NCBI RefSeq assembly: GCF_026968045.1
Contig: NZ_JAPVBQ010000001.1
Span: 1,191,238-1,255,237, forward strand
DNA: 64,000 nt
Source: Modestobacter sp. VKM Ac-2977
GTDB taxonomy: Bacteria; Actinomycetota; Actinomycetes; Mycobacteriales; Geodermatophilaceae
Direction: 5' to 3'
Positions 1 to 42,212 of the stretch are shown here, one piece after another. Position 1 is the stretch's first letter; each line of letters begins with the position of its first letter. The notes under the pieces are model-generated. The model saw only the letters and a list, made by a program, of their open reading frames with translations. It was not told the origin of the DNA and searched no databases. Made by a program: the position numbers and the translations under genes.

Positions 1-166
1 TCATCTCCGGGAACACCACGAGGTGGGCATCGCGGCCGGCCGCCCGCCGGGTCCACTCGACGACCAGCTCCGCGTTGCCCGCGAGGTCGCCGACCCGGGT
101 GTCGACCTGGGCCAGGGCCACCCGCAACTGCCGCGCCGACTCCGCCGTCCGTTGCTGATCACTCAC
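1..166 (-). CDS. nadE: NAD+ synthase (glutamine-hydrolysing), N-terminal fragment
   Basis: Only the first 55 codons lie in the window; the gene runs off its left edge. Reading the minus strand from a GTG at 166 gives a short polar start followed by LRVALAQVDTRVGDLAGN and then HLVVFPEM, the beginning of the nitrilase-type glutaminase domain that opens glutamine-dependent NAD+ synthases; the Glu in FPEM is the expected catalytic glutamate of the nitrilase triad. The family hydrolyses glutamine and uses the ammonia to amidate deamido-NAD+ in the cytoplasm. It is divergent from glnA2. The start is chosen because homology begins a few residues later; no clear ribosome binding site is seen. Other nitrilase-fold enzymes cannot be fully excluded from this fragment. 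Confidence 0.75.
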   Translation of the reverse strand, partial: MSDQQRTAESARQLRVALAQVDTRVGDLAGNAELVVEWTRRAAGRDAHLVVFPEM

Positions 167-343
167 ACCGGAGAGTGTGGTCGCCGCGCCGCCCGGTCGC
201 CCAGGTGGGGACTCCCCGGGCCGGTGTGGTTCACGCCACATGCGCGGCAGCGTGTGACCGGTCCGGGGTGCCAGTTCCGCCCGGCCCCTCCGAGGGGGCA
301 GGCTGGGGCCCACGTAACACCGCTGTCACGACGGGAGTGGAGC

Positions 344-1693
344 ATGGCGAGCATGGACCGCCAGCAGGAGTTCGTCCTGCGCACCCTGGAGGAGCGCGAC
401 ATCCGCTTCGTGCGGCTGTGGTTCACCGACGTCTCCGGCTACCTCAAGGCCGTCGCGGTGGCCCCGGCCGAGATCGAGGCTGCGTTCGCGGAGGGCATCG
501 GCTTCGACGGCTCGGCGATCGAGGGCTTCGCCCGGGTCTACGAGTCCGACATGCTGGCCAAGCCCGACCCGGGCACCTTCCAGGTCATGCCGGGCTCGCG
601 CGGGCAGGCCAGCGAGACCGCGCGGATGTTCTGCGACATCACGCTGCCCGACGGTTCGCCTGCCTGGGCCGACCCGCGGCACGTGCTGCGGCGGGCGCTG
701 AGCAAGGCCGCCGACATGGGGTTCACCTTCTACACCCACCCCGAGATCGAGTTCTTCCTGCTCAAGGACCTGCCCAGCGACGGCACGCCCCCCGAGCCGG
801 CCGACGTCGGCGGCTACTTCGACCTCTCCACGCACAACGTGGCGCACGACTTCCGTCGGGAGGCGGTCTTCGCGCTGGAGGCGATGGGCATCTCGGTGGA
901 GTTCAGCCACCACGAGGTCGCCCCCGGCCAGCAGGAGATCGACCTGCGGTACGCCGACGCGCTGTCGATGGCCGACAACATCATGACGCTGCGGCACGTC
1001 GTCCGGGAGGTGGCGCTGGCCCAGGGCGTGCACGCGACCTTCATGCCCAAGCCCTTCACCGAGCTGGCCGGCTCGGCGATGCACACCCACCTGTCGCTGT
1101 TCGAGGGCGACCGCAACGCCTTCCACGACCCGGCCGACCCGATGCGGCTGTCGACCACCGGCAAGCAGTTCATCGCCGGGCTGCTCACCCACGCCCGGGA
1201 GATGACCGCAATCACCAACCAGACGGTCAACTCCTACCGGCGGCTGCTGGCCGGCACCGAGGCACCCACGGCGGCGACCTGGGGCCGGGCCAACCGGTCG
1301 GCGCTGGTGCGGCTGCCCTCCTACAAGCCGAACAAGGGCAACTCCGCCCGGGTCGAGGTCCGCTCGCCGGACTCGGCGTGCAACCCCTACCTCACCTTCG
1401 CGGTGCTGCTGGCCGCCGGCCTGCGCGGCATCGAGAAGGGCTACGAGCTGCCGCCCGAAGCCGAGGACGACGTCTGGTCGCTCACCGACACCGAGCGGCG
1501 GGCGGCCGGGTACGAGGACCTGCCGGTCTCCCTCGGTGAGGCGCTCACCGCGATGCAGGGCAGCGAGCTCGTCGCCGAGACCCTGGGGGAGCACGTCTTC
1601 GACTTCTTCCTGCGCAACAAGTGGGAGGAGTTCAACTCCTACCGGCAGAACGTCACCCCCTTCGAGCTCAAGCGCTACCTCCCCGGCTTGTAG
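344..1693 (+). CDS. glnA2: GlnA2-type glutamine synthetase family protein
   Basis: A 449-residue glutamine synthetase-fold ligase, close in length and sequence to M. tuberculosis GlnA2 (start MDRQ.EFVLRTLEERDIRF). N-terminal beta-grasp about residues 15-105, then the ATP-guanido catalytic domain; metal and substrate motifs include HPEIEFFL, FSHHEVAPGQQEID, MPKPF, GSAMHTHLSLF and RVEVRSPDSACNPYL. In the position equivalent to the adenylylated tyrosine of GlnA1 (DLYELP) it has Trp378 (DVWSLT), so it should escape GlnE control. The Streptomyces GlnA2 homologue has been described as a gamma-glutamylpolyamine synthetase, so the substrate need not be ammonia. The start at 344 has GGAG seven bases upstream; ATG 353 is an alternative. 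A palindromic repeat begins on the stop codon. Confidence 0.93.
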   Translation: MASMDRQQEFVLRTLEERDIRFVRLWFTDVSGYLKAVAVAPAEIEAAFAEGIGFDGSAIEGFARVYESDMLAKPDPGTFQVMPGSRGQASETARMFCDITLPDGSPAWADPRHVLRRALSKAADMGFTFYTHPEIEFFLLKDLPSDGTPPEPADVGGYFDLSTHNVAHDFRREAVFALEAMGISVEFSHHEVAPGQQEIDLRYADALSMADNIMTLRHVVREVALAQGVHATFMPKPFTELAGSAMHTHLSLFEGDRNAFHDPADPMRLSTTGKQFIAGLLTHAREMTAITNQTVNSYRRLLAGTEAPTAATWGRANRSALVRLPSYKPNKGNSARVEVRSPDSACNPYLTFAVLLAAGLRGIEKGYELPPEAEDDVWSLTDTERRAAGYEDLPVSLGEALTAMQGSELVAETLGEHVFDFFLRNKWEEFNSYRQNVTPFELKRYLPGL

Positions 1694-1750
1694 AAGGACC
1701 CCCTCGCCCCCCAGGCCTCGCAAGCTCGGCCGGGTCCCTGCGAGGGGGCC
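1693..1750 (+). repeat. 3'-end palindromic repeat, copy 1
   Basis: A 58-bp element that starts on the last base of the glnA2 stop codon. It opens with GAAGGACCCC, has a run of six C, a centre CCTCGCAAGCTCG and closes with GCGAGGGGGCC. The outer arms CCCCCTCGC and GCGAGGGGG pair. Related copies lie at 37520-37576 and 41535-41593 (minus); the outer stem differs in sequence in each copy but stays paired. Probable transcription terminator or mRNA 3'-end structure. Confidence 0.8.
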
Positions 1751-1778
1751 GTTCCAGTCCAGACCTGACGGCGCTCAC

Positions 1779-1784
1779 TACGCT
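1779..1784 (+). promoter_or_regulatory. -10 box TACGCT, predicted leaderless
   Basis: TACGCT ends six bases before the ATG at 1791, so transcription would begin at the start codon of the amidotransferase gene. No ribosome binding site is present between box and start. Confidence 0.55.
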
Positions 1785-1790
1785 GCGAAC

Positions 1791-2522
1791 ATGGCCCGTC
1801 TGCTCGTCGTCGTCCCCTCTGACACCGACCCGCCGACCCGGCTGGGGGAGTGGTTGCGGGAGGCCGGGCTGGAGCTCGACGAGCGGCGGCTGTCCGGCGG
1901 TGAGCCGCTGCCGGCGGACCTGACCGGGTTCGACGGGCTGCTGGTGATGGGCGGCCCGCAGTCGTCGCTGGACGACGAGCAGACCTCCCCGGAGCTGGTC
2001 GGCGTGCGGCACCTGCTGGCCCAGGCGGTCGCGGCCGACGTGCCGACCCTGGCGATCTGCCTGGGTGCCCAGCTGCTGGCCCAGGTCGGCGGCGGCAGCA
2101 CCCAGGTCGGCGCCGACGGTCCGGAGGTGGGGGCGACGCTGGTGGCCAAGCGGGACGCCGCGGACGCCGACCCGCTGTTCGCGCCGCTGCCGCTGTCGCC
2201 GGATGTGCTCCAGTGGCACCACGACGAGATCGACCGGCTGCCGGCCGGCGCGACCCTGCTGGCCAGCAACCCGCGGTACCAGCACCAGGCCTACCGGGTC
2301 GGTGAGCACGTCTACGGCCTGCAGTTCCACATCGAGACCGACCCGGCGCTGGTGCGGCAGTGGGCCGACGGCGATGCGGTCGGGGTGGCCAGCAGCGGCC
2401 TGGACGTCGAGACCATCTGCGCCCGCGCGACCGCCGTGCACCCGGACCTCGCCGAGGTCTGGGCGCCCTTCGCGGCCCGGTTCGCCGACCTGGTGCGCGC
2501 TCGCGCCACCACCGGGGGCTGA
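1791..2522 (+). CDS. Class I glutamine amidotransferase (GMP synthase-like GATase domain)
   Basis: A single-domain class I glutamine amidotransferase of 243 residues. The nucleophile elbow AICLGAQLLA puts the catalytic Cys at residue 90, and LQFHIETDP supplies His180 and Glu182, so the triad is complete. GLLVMGGPQSS near residues 45-55 is the expected oxyanion-hole region. Such stand-alone proteins, often annotated as GMP synthase-like, hydrolyse glutamine and pass ammonia to an unknown partner or cleave gamma-glutamyl compounds. Its place between glnA2 and glnE, with a stop codon two bases before the glnE start, suggests a link to glutamine or gamma-glutamylamine metabolism, for example hydrolysis of gamma-glutamylpolyamines made by GlnA2; that is inference. 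Confidence 0.85.
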   Translation: MARLLVVVPSDTDPPTRLGEWLREAGLELDERRLSGGEPLPADLTGFDGLLVMGGPQSSLDDEQTSPELVGVRHLLAQAVAADVPTLAICLGAQLLAQVGGGSTQVGADGPEVGATLVAKRDAADADPLFAPLPLSPDVLQWHHDEIDRLPAGATLLASNPRYQHQAYRVGEHVYGLQFHIETDPALVRQWADGDAVGVASSGLDVETICARATAVHPDLAEVWAPFAARFADLVRARATTGG

Positions 2523-2524
2523 CG

Positions 2525-5500
2525 GTGGCGGCCGCTCCGCAGCTCGACGACGAGGTGCCCCGCCGCGCCGTCGTCCGGCTGGTGCGCTTCGGCTTCGACG
2601 ACGGCGCCCGGGTGGCCCGGCTGCTGGCCTCCCCGGAGCTGGGCCTGTGGGACCTGGAGCGCAACGAGCCGGCCGACCCCGAGGCCGCGCCGGTGGTCTC
2701 TGCGCTGGCCCGCGCCGGGGACCCGGACCTCGCCGTCCGCTCGCTGGCCCGGCTGGTGGAGGCCCTCGACGCCGCCGACTCCGACGGCGAGCTCGCCGCC
2801 GCCCTGCTGGCCCGGCTGCGCGGCTCGTCGACGGTCCGCTCCCGGCTGCTCGCCGTGCTGGGTGCCTCTGCCGGTCTCGCCGACCACCTGGCCGCCCACC
2901 CGACGGACTGGGTGGTGCTGGACACCGAGGACCGCACCGCCCGCCCCAGCCCGCAGGAGCTCGAGCAGCAGCTGCTCTTCGCCGTCGGGGCCGACCCGCA
3001 CGACCCGCCGTGGGGAGTGCGGCTGGGCACCGCCGCGCCCGACGCCGACCCCGCCCGGGTCCGCGACCTCCGGCACGCCCACCTGCGCGCCGTCCTCTCG
3101 CTGGCCGGCCGCGACCTCGGCGACGGGCTGCCCGCCGACGAGGTGGCCGCCGAGCTGTCGGACATCGCCGGAGCCGTGCTCACCGCCGGCCTCGCCCTGG
3201 CCCTCGCCGAGCAGCCGGCCGACGCCACCCCGTGCCGGCTGGCCGTCATCGCGCTGGGCAAGTGCGGTGGCCGGGAGCTGAACTACGTGAGCGACGTCGA
3301 CGTGGTCTTCGTGGCCGAGCCCGTCGAGGGGGAGGACGACGCCGCGGCGACGGCCAGCGCGGCGCGGGTGGCCAGTGCGCTGATGCGGATCTGCGGGCAG
3401 GCCGCCTGGGAGGTGGACGCGGCGCTGCGCCCGGACGGCAAGGCCGGTGCGCTGGTGCGCACGGTGGCCGGGCACCGCGCCTACTACGACCAGTGGGCCA
3501 GCACCTGGGAGTTCCAGGCCCTGCTCAAGATGCGGCCGGTGGCCGGGGACCCCGACCTGGGCCGGGAGTACGTGGACGAGATCTGGCCACTGGTCTGGAA
3601 GGCCGGGGACCGCCCCGGCTTCGTCGCGGAGATCCAGGCGATGCGCCGCCGGGTGGAGCAGAACATCCCGGCCGCCCAGGCCGAGCGGCAGCTCAAGCTC
3701 GGCCGCGGTGGGCTCCGCGACGTCGAGTTCAGCGTCCAGCTGCTGCAGCTGGTGCACGGCCGCGCCGACGTCTCGCTGCGCGCCGGCGGCACGATCCCCG
3801 CGCTGACCGTCCTCGGTGCCGGTGGGTACATCGGGCGGGAGGACGCCGCCACGCTGATCGCCTCCTACCGCTTCCTGCGCACCGTCGAGCACCGGCTGCA
3901 GCTGCTGCGGCTGCGGCGCACCCACCTGCTCCCGGTCGCCGGTGACCAGCTGCGCTGGCTGGCCCGCTCGCTGGGCTACAAGCCCGACGACCGCGGCGAC
4001 TCGGTCGCCGTCCTGCAGGCGGAGCTGGGGCTGCACACCCGGGTGGTGCGCCGGCTGCACGAGAAGCTCTTCTACCGGCCGCTGCTGTCCTCGGTCGCCC
4101 GGGTGCCGGGTGAGCAGCTGCAGCTGGGCCCGAAGGCAGCGGGGGAGTGGCTGCGCGCGCTCGGCTTCGCGGACTCCGACGGCGCGCTGCGGCACCTCAC
4201 CGCGCTCACCGGTGGACTGAGCCGGTCGGCATCGATGCAGCGCTACCTGCTGCCGGTGCTGCTGCAGACCTTCGCCTCCTGCGCCGACCCCGACGCCGGG
4301 CTGCTCGCCTACCGCAAGGTCAGCGAGGCGCTGGGCAACGACCAGTGGTTCTTGCGGCTGCTGCGGGACGAGGGGCAGGCCGCCGAGCGGCTGGCCGTGC
4401 TGCTGGGCTCCAGCCAGTACGTCGCCGGCCTGCTGACCCGGACGCCGGAGGCGATGCGGATCCTCGCCGACGACGCCCAGCTGGAGCCCCGCAGCGCCGA
4501 CGCGCTCACCTCGGCGTGGCGGCAGGCGGTGGCCCGGGCCGACAACCCGAGCGCCGGCGTACAGGTGCTGCGGTCGCTGCGCCGCCAGGAGCTGCTGCGG
4601 ATCGCCTGCGCCGACCTGCTCGGCCGGCTGGACGTGCTCCGGGTCGGCCAGGCCCTGTACGACGTCGCGGTGGCCACGCTGCGCGCCGGCCTGGACGCCG
4701 CCGTGCGCAGCTGGGCCGCCGAGACCGGGCTGGCGGTCGCCGACGTCCCGGTCGACGTCGCGGTCATCGGGATGGGCCGGCTGGGCGGCGGCGAGCTGGG
4801 CTACGGCTCGGACGCCGACGTCCTCTTCGTGCACCGCGTCCGCCCGGGTGCGGACGAGGGCCGGGCCACGTCGGCGGCCACCGCCATCGCGCACGCCCTG
4901 CGCCGGCTGCTGAGCGAACCCGCGCCCGACCCGGCCTTCGAGGTGGACGCCAACCTGCGTCCCGAGGGCCGCCAGGGCGCGATGTCGCGGAGCCTGAGCG
5001 CATTCGCCGAGTACTACGAGCGCTGGGTCTCCACCTGGGAGGTGCAGGCGCTGCTGCGCGCGGAGCCGGTGGCCGGGGACGAGGCGCTGGGCCGGGAGTT
5101 CGTGGCGCTGATCGACCCGCTGCGCTACCCGGCCGCTGGGCTGTCCATCGAGCAGGTGGCCGAGATCCGCCGGATCAAGGCCCGGGTGGACAGCGAGCGG
5201 CTGCCCCGTGGCGCCGACCCGGCCACGCACACCAAGCTCGGCCGGGGCGGGCTGGCCGACGTGGAGTGGACCGCGCAGCTGCTCCAGCTGCAGCACGCCG
5301 CGACGCACCCGGCGCTGCGGGTCACCGGCACGGTGGCGGCCCTGGAGGCGCTGGGGGAGGCCGGTCTGCTGGACGCCGAGCAGCGGGACGCGCTGCGGTC
5401 GGCGTGGGAGCTGGCCAGCCGGGCGCGCAACGCCGTCTTCCTGGTCCGTGGTCGGCCGGGGGACCAGCTGCCCCGGCAGGGGCTGGAGCTGAGCGGGGTG

Positions 5501-16652: not shown

Positions 16653-16726
16653 GTCGCCAGGACCTGCCGCCCTCCCGCCACGCGCGGGTTCGCGGCGGGC
16701 CGCCTGTAGCGGGCCGGGGGAGGAGC

Positions 16727-36394: not shown

Positions 36395-36400
36395 TAGCGT
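36395..36400 (+). promoter_or_regulatory. -10 box TAGCGT, predicted leaderless
   Basis: TAGCGT ends seven bases before the gcvT GTG at 36408. Confidence 0.6.
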
Positions 36401-36407
36401 GCTGGCG

Positions 36408-37568
36408 GTGAGCCCGCTGACCTCCCCCCTGCACGATCGTCACGTCGCCGCCGGTGCGAAGTTCGCCGACTTCGGTGGCTGGTCCATGCCGATCGAGTAC
36501 GCCGGTGGTGGCGTGCTGGCCGAGCACACCGCGGTCCGGGAGGGCGTCGGGCTCTTCGACGTCTCGCACCTGGGCACCGCGACGGTGCGTGGCCCGGGGG
36601 CCGCCGACTTCGTCAACTCGTGCCTGACCAACGACCTGGGCAAGATCGGGCCCGGCCAGGCCCAGTACACGCTGTGCTGCGTCCCCGACGGCGACCCGCA
36701 GGCGGGGGGCGTGGTCGACGACCTGATCGTCTACCTGCACGGCCCGGACGACGTCCTGCTCGTGCCCAACGCGGCCAACGCGGCCGAGGTGCTGGCCCGG
36801 CTCTCGGCCGAGGCGCCGGTGGGGGTCACCGTCACCGACCGGCACACCGAGGTCGCCGTGCTGGCGCTGCAGGGGCCGCGTTCAGCCGAGGTGCTGGCGG
36901 CCGTCGGCCTGCCCGGCGAGCTGACCTACATGTCCTTCGCCGAGACACCCGGCTCCGGCGGGGACGAGGTCACCGTCTGCCGGACCGGCTACACCGGCGA
37001 GCACGGCTACGAGCTGCTGGTCGCCGCCGAACGTGCCGGGACCCTGTGGGACGCGCTGCTGGCTGCCGGCGGGCCCGAGCAGATCCGGCCGTGCGGCCTG
37101 GGAGCCCGGGACACCCTGCGCACGGAGATGGGGTACCCGCTGCACGGCCACGAGCTGTCGCGGGACATCACCCCCAACCAGGCGCGGTCGGGGTGGGCCG
37201 TGGGCTGGGGCAAGGACGCGTTCTGGGGGCGCGAGGCGCTGGTCGCGGAGAAGGCGGCCGGCGCGCCGCGTCAGCTGTGGGGTCTGCAGGCGCCCGGTCG
37301 TGGGATCCCGCGGCCGGGCATGCTCGTGCTCGGCGCCGACGGCTCGCGGATCGGCGAGGTCACCAGCGGCACGTTCTCCCCGACCCTGCGGACCGGGATC
37401 GCCCTGGCACTGCTGGACAGGTCCGCCGGTGTCGCCGAGGGGACGGAGGTTGCCGTCGACGTCCGCGGGCGGCCCCAGGCGGTCGTCGTCCGGCGTCCGC
37501 CGTTCGTGGAGTCGCACACGAAGGACCCCGTTCCCCCCACGCCTCGCAAGCTCGACGCGGGCCCCTGA
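36408..37568 (+). CDS. gcvT: Glycine cleavage system aminomethyltransferase (T protein)
   Basis: A 386-residue GcvT, which takes the aminomethyl group from lipoylated GcvH and makes 5,10-methylenetetrahydrofolate. Motifs are [18 protein letters not shown] (folate-site Asp), [32 protein letters not shown] and [14 protein letters not shown], with the C-terminal [10 protein letters not shown] barrel. GcvH and GcvP are not in the window. The start is the GTG with a TAGCGT box seven bases upstream. Unusually, the last 15 codons ([15 protein letters not shown]) and the stop are formed by a copy of the interspersed palindromic repeat; the normal C-terminus would end near VVVRRPPFV. Confidence 0.94.
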
Positions 37569-37576
37569 ACGGGGCC
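37520..37576 (+). repeat. 3'-end palindromic repeat, copy 2 (inside gcvT 3' end)
   Basis: Starts GAAGGACCCC, has CCCCCC, the centre GCCTCGCAAGCTCG and ends GGGCCCCTGAACGGGGCC. The outer arms CCCCGTTC and GAACGGGG pair; the sequence differs from copy 1 at this stem but pairing is kept. It spans the gcvT stop codon. Confidence 0.8.
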
Positions 37577-37599
37577 GAGGCCCAGCGCTTCGGGTGTGA

Positions 37600-41500: not shown

Positions 41501-41534
41501 CTTAGCAGGGCTCACCAACGTCGGCCCGTCCGGT

Positions 41535-41593
41535 GGCCCTCCCGCAGGGGCCCACCGCGAGCTCTCGAGTGGTGGGGGGCAGGAGGGTCCTTC
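41535..41593 (-). repeat. 3'-end palindromic repeat, copy 3
   Basis: On the minus strand it reads GAAGGACCCTCCTGCCCCCC, then ACCACTCGAGAGCTCGC, then GGTGGGCCCCTGCGGGAGGGCC. It starts one base beyond the DUF3043 stop codon. Outer arms ACCCTCCTGC and GCGGGAGGG pair with one G-U. Third member of the family at 1693 and 37520. Confidence 0.8.
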
Positions 41594-41594
41594 T

Positions 41595-42212
41595 TCAGAC
41601 CTCGGCGCCCAGCGGTACCTGCGGCTTGGGGAAGCGCCAGCGGCGGATCATCGTGGCCCGGCTGACGCCGTACCAGACCAGGCTGCGCATCTTCTGGTCG
41701 GTGTCGGGGAATCGCTCGGTGACCTTCGCCTTGATCTTGCGGCCGAGGAGGAACGAGTCGCCGATGATCACCAGGAAGAAGGCGAACCACACGAACACGG
41801 TGTAGCTCTGAACGGCCGGGACCGGGATGAAGTAGCCGACCAGCACCAGCGCGGCCACCGCCAGGAAGAAGCTGCCGGCGTTGCGGCGGGCGTCGACGAC
41901 GTCGCGGACCAGTCGGCGCACCGGGCCGCGGTCGCGGGCGGGCAGTGCGCTGTCGTCGCCGCGCGCCCCGGCGACCCGGGTGTTGCCACGGCCCGCGGCC
42001 TGCTGCTCGCGCATCCGCTTGTAGGCCTCCTTGCGCGTGGTCGGCGGCGGCGGCACCGGCCCACTGCGCCGTCCCTGCGCCTCGTTGCGGCGCGGGGTGG
42101 GGCGGCCCTTGCCCGTCGTGCCGATCGCCGTCGACCCGTGCGGGGTGACGGTGGTGACGGCGTCCGACGCCGGGTCGGGGGCGGGACGGCGGCCGGGCAG
42201 GCGGAGCTTCAC
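41595..42212 (-). CDS. DUF3043 membrane protein
   Basis: A 205-residue protein of the DUF3043 family, common in actinobacteria. Residues 1-95 are polar and basic, with TRKEAYKRMREQQAAGRG, a family mark. Two membrane helices follow (AGSFFLAVAALVLVGYFIPV and YTVFVWFAFFLVIIGDSFLL), then a conserved cytoplasmic tail with RKIKAKVTERFPDT and MRSLVWYGVSRATMIRRWRF. Function unknown; the Rv2206 gene holds this position in M. tuberculosis. The GTG start has TAGACT seven bases upstream. The mRNA end is marked by repeat copy 3. Confidence 0.87.
   Translation of the reverse strand: MKLRLPGRRPAPDPASDAVTTVTPHGSTAIGTTGKGRPTPRRNEAQGRRSGPVPPPPTTRKEAYKRMREQQAAGRGNTRVAGARGDDSALPARDRGPVRRLVRDVVDARRNAGSFFLAVAALVLVGYFIPVPAVQSYTVFVWFAFFLVIIGDSFLLGRKIKAKVTERFPDTDQKMRSLVWYGVSRATMIRRWRFPKPQVPLGAEV

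Follow-up and report, generated by a model that had tools for sequence, protein, structure and literature searches.

Short palindromes are common in bacterial genomes, and their choice of sites and their role at gene ends are unsettled. Rickettsia palindromic elements (RPEs) insert into genes. The RPEs are named in PMC3733652, which gives a length of 20–40 bp for repetitive extragenic palindromes (REPs) of the GTAG and CGTC superfamilies and describes the CGTC REPs as being without a dedicated transposase. REPs of Escherichia coli that lie within 15 nt of a stop codon are reported to act on translation; the same report places 446 of 4,072 predicted REPs this close to a stop, and cites 260 of 496 for an earlier study (PMC12306157). 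For the Geodermatophilaceae, the use of BOX-PCR fingerprints is reported (PMC2625358), and in the part of PMC9686282 consulted the word 'palindromic' denotes CRISPR. A search of titles and abstract openings, largely in journals outside subscription, found no paper on such repeats in this family. Here we describe a hairpin found in a 64-kb stretch of DNA (the window) from a member of Modestobacter, a genus of soil and stone bacteria. Taken as a whole, the evidence is best explained by a REP-like, non-autonomous mobile DNA palindrome of Geodermatophilaceae, which we consider the probable reading.

Three copies of the palindrome had been claimed in a preliminary description of this DNA, and all three are present. 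Copy 1 (1693–1755, plus strand, 79.7 bits), copy 2 (37520–37581, plus strand, 70.8 bits) and copy 3 (41530–41593, minus strand, 76.4 bits) were the top three covariance-model matches in the window (E 4e-14 to 3e-12, filters off), as scored with a model, R1, built from 31 own-genome copies that include these three. A degenerate fourth copy at 16657–16720 (plus strand, 29.4 bits, E 7e-4) had been overlooked; all window matches beyond these four have E values of at least 0.03. The words said to be common to the copies, GAAGGACCC, a six-C run, CTCGNNAGCTCG and GGGNCCCTG, were given correctly, and GAAGGACCC alone is weak evidence (3 matches versus 0.70 expected; 3 of 100 shuffles reach 3). Copy 1 consists of the outer stem CCCCCTCGC/GCGAGGGGG, an inner stem, the loop CTCGCAAGCTCG and a GTTCC 3' tail, and the outer stem of copy 3 is ACCCTCCTGC/GCGGGAGGG. 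An Rfam search of the window returned no match above the gathering score, and around copy 1 only two lncRNA matches, both far below threshold.

The genes upstream of the copies in the window are those for glutamine synthetase, gcvT and a DUF3043 gene, and the three copies lie at a stop codon or contain one, as claimed. Copy 1 overlaps the TAG stop of the glutamine synthetase gene (1691–1693, plus strand; ORF 23–1693, coordinates as listed), the G of which is its first base. Copy 3 begins one base past the TGA stop of the DUF3043 gene (41595–41597, minus strand), which is the commonest spacing of the element, TGAN directly followed by GAAGG. No stop stands at the beginning of copy 2; the gcvT frame (ORF 36399–37568) enters it and ends at an internal TGA (37566–37568). 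The GcvT terminus therefore lies 16 codons inside copy 2, and the nearest relative without the copy has GTCCGCTGA there, giving a protein end ...ESHVR. Read-in ends like that of gcvT also occur at loci L147, L148 and L150 in other genomes of the genus. Degenerate copy 4 is preceded by a TAG at −6 whose coding score, 6.0, does not reach the threshold of 15, and an antisense gene end (TGA, score 63.6) lies 9 bases from its far end.

Genome-wide, the element proved to be present in more than 100 copies, not in the three of the window only: the covariance model found 111 in the own genome at E ≤ 0.001. These copies, together with strong covariation, uphold the claim of a dispersed, structure-conserving element. 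Twelve genus genomes, the own genome included, carry 83 to at least 155 copies each, with the best 150 candidates scored per genome; the single-contig genus genome G008 holds 145. Across the Geodermatophilaceae, matches at E ≤ 1e-6 occurred in 101 of 112 genomes and 9 of 12 genera, with copy numbers that are lower bounds because the best 47 candidates were scored per genome. When a phylum sample of 296 genomes was searched with stricter filters and the best 17 candidates scored, the own genome alone matched (0 of the 295 others). A pattern scan of named genomes matched at least 116 stretches, and the titles of the 80 among the matches listed are all Modestobacter, Geodermatophilus, Blastococcus, Klenkia, Goekera or Geodermatophilaceae bacterium. 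We take Klenkia and Goekera to be members of Geodermatophilaceae.

The element is about 60–64 nt long and forms 19 pairs in two stacked stems. Its 5' GAA is unpaired in the model, the outer stem of 11 pairs opens with GG-(bulged A)-CCCCC, and the inner stem comprises 8 pairs, two positions of which are usually A·C on the gene-sense strand. The loop CTCGCNNGCTCG and the internal bulge NCCCT are conserved beyond pairing needs. A minority carries the 3' tail GTTCCAGCACGTCACC (GTTCC-type tail in 46 of 281 copies), and only in the tail of this minority does a CGTC-like word occur.

The evidence for this structure is covariation, not the folding energy of single copies, which is unremarkable (z −2.07, −0.84 and −1.61 for copies 1–3). 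Compensatory stem changes, previously read from the window copies, are strongly supported: in 31 own-genome copies, 54 cells had changed on both sides versus 17.5 ± 4.2 in shuffled data, and the covariation score was 0.248 versus 0.095, with 0 of 500 shuffles as high. The alignment of these copies (A1) was made by MAFFT and is model-free, and covariation is present there too. Among 94 distinct own copies we counted 245 both-sided cells versus 76.4 ± 8.6 and a covariation score of 0.358 versus 0.119 ± 0.006 shuffled, with both-sided changes at 16 of the 19 pairs and 91.9% of cells paired versus 36.8–48.7% when the pairing was slid; 120 copies from named genomes gave the same picture (244 both-sided cells versus 75.0 ± 7.8), both alignments having been fitted to the model and hence leaning towards it.

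The mismatches bear on which strand forms the helix. On the sense strand, A·C occupied the two inner-stem positions in 63 and 29 of the 94 own copies and in 74 and 67 of the 120 named-genome copies, alternating there with A-U, G-C and C-G; G·U was found in a single cell in each set. Over all cells, A·C was counted 118 times versus 20 for G·U in the own copies and 165 times versus 16 in the named genomes, and outside the two positions the A·C excess was slight (24 versus 19, and 24 versus 15). Cells that are A·C on the sense strand are G·U on the opposite strand, and the antisense strand has the lower folding energy in 301 of 310 copies, the mean difference being 6.3 kcal/mol. Both the G·U-compatible pairing and the lower energy point to the strand opposite the host mRNA, which would act as RNA or, with greater likelihood for a mobile element, in the form of single-stranded DNA. 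Alternatively, the A·C cells may reflect common descent or a specific recognition of A·C on the sense strand. The same pairing and energy would also be expected of an antisense RNA whose hairpin blocks or terminates transcription entering the gene from downstream, and the 8 nt past the hairpin average 3.2 T on the antisense strand versus 1.1 on the sense strand. However, only 2 of 90 copies reach 5 T in 8, and this T-richness is partly the reverse complement of the stop and GAA, which leaves an antisense RNA a quite improbable explanation.

Far from lying at random relative to genes, the copies occur at gene ends, as the preliminary description had it; that description understated the placement, which is fixed relative to the stop codon to almost a single base. 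Offsets were counted from the first base of GAAGG to the stop codon, and gene ends were called by a home-made codon score trained on 13,381 codons of the window. Own-genome contexts were read for 90 of the 111 copies; the remainder comprises the 19 with the weakest matches and 2 stronger copies, each found at the locus of another copy. Of these 90, 82 had a codon-scored gene end within reach (−150 to +60), 76 had a called stop at −5 to +3, and 50 had TGA at −4. For 159 copies from named genomes, the stop lay at −6 to +3 in 93, the main classes being TGA at −4 (56), −1 (12) and −5 (7) and TAG at −2 (6) and −5 (6); 35 were without a called gene end.

We then pooled 296 canonical copies from the own genome (80), genus relatives (62) and named genomes (154). 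This pool includes orthologues, and its copies are thus not all independent; it skips 58 matches that were partial or too near a locus end, and leaves out 14 non-canonical matches, 6 of which have TGA at −4. A called stop was found at −8 to +3 in 212 of the 296 copies, as expected from the claimed location at gene ends. TGA stood exactly at −4 in 128 (47 of 80 in the own genome, 26 of 62 in genus relatives and 55 of 154 in named genomes), followed by TAG at −2 (24), TGA at −1 (16), TGA at −5 (11) and TAG at −5 (10). None of the 296 canonical copies had a called stop at −3. One exception stands outside the pool: own copy L121, which starts with CGAGG and has the lowest score of the 90, has TGA at −3, and its late-starting profile match kept it out of the 296. 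Copy L024, which has lost one base in GAAGGACC, was counted as −3 in one tally and is −4 by its letters. Among random positions close to these gene ends, no single offset exceeded 21 of 3,362, a control that omitted positions up to 10 nt from the element start and shows only that no other offset is common. The near-empty −3 beside a full −4 argues against mere selection of distance. A function in readthrough or frameshifting was rejected, since the main stop offsets place the element in different frames. We know of no REP mechanism that explains such phase-locking.

No called stop was found near the other 84 of the 296 copies, some of which are likely to be uncalled gene ends. Stop triplets stood at −4 in 8 of these copies, at −5 in 11, at −3 in 1, at −2 in 10 and at −1 in 21; the few at −4 leave a plain DNA target TGAN unsupported. 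A weak sequence preference may exist at the edge of the element, because G or C occupies −3 in 98% of the 84 copies; this preference is broken by A in 12 copies with a stop at −5. The bases flanking the element on its two sides showed no clear pairing with one another; the best mutual information was 0.069, and shuffles gave values up to 0.064. By eye, some copies without a preceding stop follow the apparent truncated start of an older copy that begins at a stop. On the other side of the element, opposing gene ends lay within 150 nt in 117 of 307 copies, with no sharp offset.

The stop codon itself is supplied by the host. Its position was kept in 114 of 128 occupied/empty ortholog pairs (27 of 29 sites), a count that excludes stops displaced by more than 30 nt, and changes of the stop codon were no commoner in these pairs (32 of 128) than in empty/empty pairs (17 of 68). 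That the element brings its own stop was therefore rejected as a general rule. Site L036 departs from it, with TGA in the empty genomes G005 and G009 and TAG in the occupied ones.

To follow occupancy, 29 own gene ends were compared with the orthologous ends in up to five relatives (G012, G009, G001, G005 and G020). A site was called empty if there was no nhmmer match at E ≤ 1e-3 near it, and worn or internally deleted copies were scored in this way, for example at L015 in G001, G005 and G020, L057 in G020 and L012 in G001. In the nearest relative, G012, 15 of the 29 sites were occupied and 14 empty. Copies stood in the same orientation at 7 sites in G009, 12 in G001 and 8 in G005, and in the opposite orientation at 2, 1 and 1; 18, 15 and 17 sites were empty, and 2, 1 and 3 were without data. 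G020 had 2 occupied and 6 empty sites, with 21 lacking data. Only 5 of the 29 ends (L047, L057, L073, L089 and L105) were occupied in all of G012, G009, G001 and G005.

Occupied orthologous ends need not hold the same copy. In 44 same-orientation ortholog pairs, element identity, measured on profile matches, which may lack a few bases, was at least 90% in 15, as for inherited copies, and below 80% in 21, where the 300-nt upstream flanks are 93–99% identical; 300 random own pairs show 77 ± 5% identity, the level of those 21 pairs. The opposite orientation was found at the same gene end for L059 in G001, G005 and G009 and for L049 in G009. Inspection by eye revealed a second copy nested inside the first at the L044 site of G012, and remnants comprising only the first element bases at L066, L042 and L101 in that genome. 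At L060 (G000:C9:627093), the copy appears, by eye, to have replaced about 80 nt of DNA that is intact in five relatives, comprising an intergenic sequence which all five share and the next gene's start codon; none of the compared sites showed an obvious target duplication by eye. The two copies at L045/L096 (G000:C9:157306–157462) start about 92 nt apart and are each followed by the same GC-rich stretch, which is the opposing gene end, so that the arrangement is a tandem duplication of the element and that end. Across close relatives, one gene end can thus carry a similar, quite different, inverted, nested, remnant or absent copy.

From this presence and absence, replacement, inversion and nesting among relatives we infer that the element is mobile, and REP/MITE-like spreading, as earlier suggested, fits the 14 of 29 sites that are empty in G012 and the 21 of 44 ortholog pairs below 80% identity. 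Part of the turnover could be recombination between tandem copies. In another interpretation, the hairpin is a functional 3' UTR structure at translation termination, acting in ribosome stalling or mRNA protection and kept by selection, and its apparent mobility is recombination among copies. The near single-base spacing from the stop and a loop and bulge conserved beyond pairing would be natural for such a structure, but occupancy that varies widely among orthologues, with only the 5 of 29 ends filled in all four relatives, the better helix on the antisense strand and the two orientations at one gene end (L059) make it unlikely.

Other palindromes stand at some of the same ends. A second dispersed palindrome around AAATGGCCATTT was found at 11 own-genome sites (L378–L388, for example C1:67872 and C10:407240; 0 for the reversed control pattern), none of them in the window. 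It occurs at the glutamine synthetase end (L054) in G001, G005, G009 and G020, where copy 1 stands here. At the L039 end in G001, G005 and G009, a long palindrome near GTTGGTCACCCAG...CTGGGTGACCAAC directly follows the stop (z −6.4, −10.4 and −7.9).

The palindrome had also been taken for a probable terminator, a claim that the data do not bear out. If the copies were a family of transcription terminators whose hairpin ends the transcripts of the upstream gene and which spread because they are functional, their position directly behind the stop would be accounted for, as would the opposing genes that end no more than 150 nt from the other side in 117 of 307 copies and the other hairpin (z < −2, 80 nt after) present at 30 of 70 empty sites. 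However, a U tract (at least 5 T in 8 nt) was seen in 0 of 83 sense and 2 of 90 antisense copies, and a consensus terminator scan of positions 1–5000, which covers terminators of the U-tract type only, found 0 sites. For 29 of 90 copies, the following 90 nt contained a second hairpin (z < −2), versus 7 of 90 control stretches 500 nt further on. Moreover, the mismatches sit on the sense strand, the better helix forms opposite the mRNA, and occupancy is not conserved, with 14 of 29 sites empty in the nearest relative. A terminator family is accordingly an explanation to which we assign a low probability. At L012, L015, L043, L101 and L119, a like downstream hairpin was seen by eye in relatives called empty, and for this reason the element seems to have been added at such ends behind the stop and ahead of an older hairpin. 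The element may affect mRNA 3' ends.

If the element is a non-autonomous mobile palindrome, as we favor, it would move in single-stranded form, as the hairpin of the strand that lies opposite the host mRNA, and a putative enzyme would handle this hairpin. No Y1/RAYT gene was found in the genus: Y1_Tnp (PF01797) was absent from all 22 genus genomes, whereas the same search was positive in 5 of 14 control genomes, and a RAYT mobilizer in the genus was rejected on this basis. Transposition of single-stranded DNA on the lagging-strand template might give a stronger strand bias than that in G008, where 85 of 145 copies are co-directional with replication (p 0.046, terminus assumed); with this count, lagging-strand insertion was rejected. 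In a region of G008:C1 chosen after seeing the counts (1.8–3.2 Mb, roughly opposite dnaA), 12 of the 145 copies were found versus 36 expected. The element would enter, or survive, directly behind pre-existing stop codons. In the mRNA form at the −4 offset, a GC-rich hairpin is predicted to begin 8 nt from the stop codon's first base. The E. coli REPs that lie no more than 15 nt from a stop suggest, by analogy, that this hairpin could hold up ribosomes at termination or slow down 3' exonucleases.

Insertion might further be coupled to translation termination, such that the mobilizing reaction recognizes stops while they are read and the insertion point is thereby set to the base; we regard this coupling as speculative and hold it with little confidence. 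Ribosome-paused, transcription-coupled or RNA-templated intermediates may serve as examples of such a route. If true, arrival by this route would make the palindrome a mobile element with translation-guided targeting, directed to pre-existing stops and not by DNA sequence alone. The placement is sharp enough (TGA at −4 in 128 of 296 copies, a stop one base nearer in 0 of 296) to separate targeting from selection experimentally, and because close relatives carry unrelated copies at the same gene ends, events may occur often enough to be observed. The element is thus well suited to studies of how small mobile repeats arrive at gene ends, and it cautions annotators against taking every conserved hairpin at an actinobacterial stop codon for a terminator.

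Rho-independent terminators are likewise GC-rich stem-loops at gene 3' ends, but the element lacks a U tract, has another hairpin behind about a third of its copies, and combines a conserved loop and bulge sequence with occupancy that varies between orthologues. With the RPEs it shares a palindrome that can be read as coding sequence, as where gcvT reads 16 codons into copy 2; such coding use is exceptional in the element.

The closest likeness is to REPs (PMC3733652) and REPINs (Bertels and Rainey 2011, PMC3116915), which are portrayed in these sources as short covarying extragenic palindromes in tens to hundreds of copies, with one unpaired end and a restriction to groups of species. Nested and tandem copies of the element were seen. 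High copy number outside genes is found here too (111 own copies; 76 of 90 with a stop at −5 to +3), and the CGTC REPs are likewise described as being without a dedicated transposase (PMC3733652). A classical REP/RAYT element of the GTAG or CGTC superfamily would indeed show this copy number, the position at gene ends and a covarying hairpin with an unpaired 5' end. Nevertheless, the 5' end of the element is GAAG(G)-like and not an unpaired GTAG or CGTC, its 60–64 nt with two stacked stems differ from the 20–40 bp given for REPs (PMC3733652), and a Y1 (IS200/IS605-type) transposase was found in 0 of 22 genus genomes. Membership of the classical families is therefore extremely improbable, and because tag, size and, within the genus, RAYT all differ, the element is REP-like yet outside the classical REPs. 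It also departs from REPs and REPINs in that most of its copies stand at one of a few exact stop-codon offsets. With E. coli REPs it shares a hairpin just behind the stop codon, but while 446 of 4,072 or 260 of 496 of those are reported near a stop (PMC12306157), 212 of 296 copies of the present element have one at −8 to +3, with a single dominant offset.
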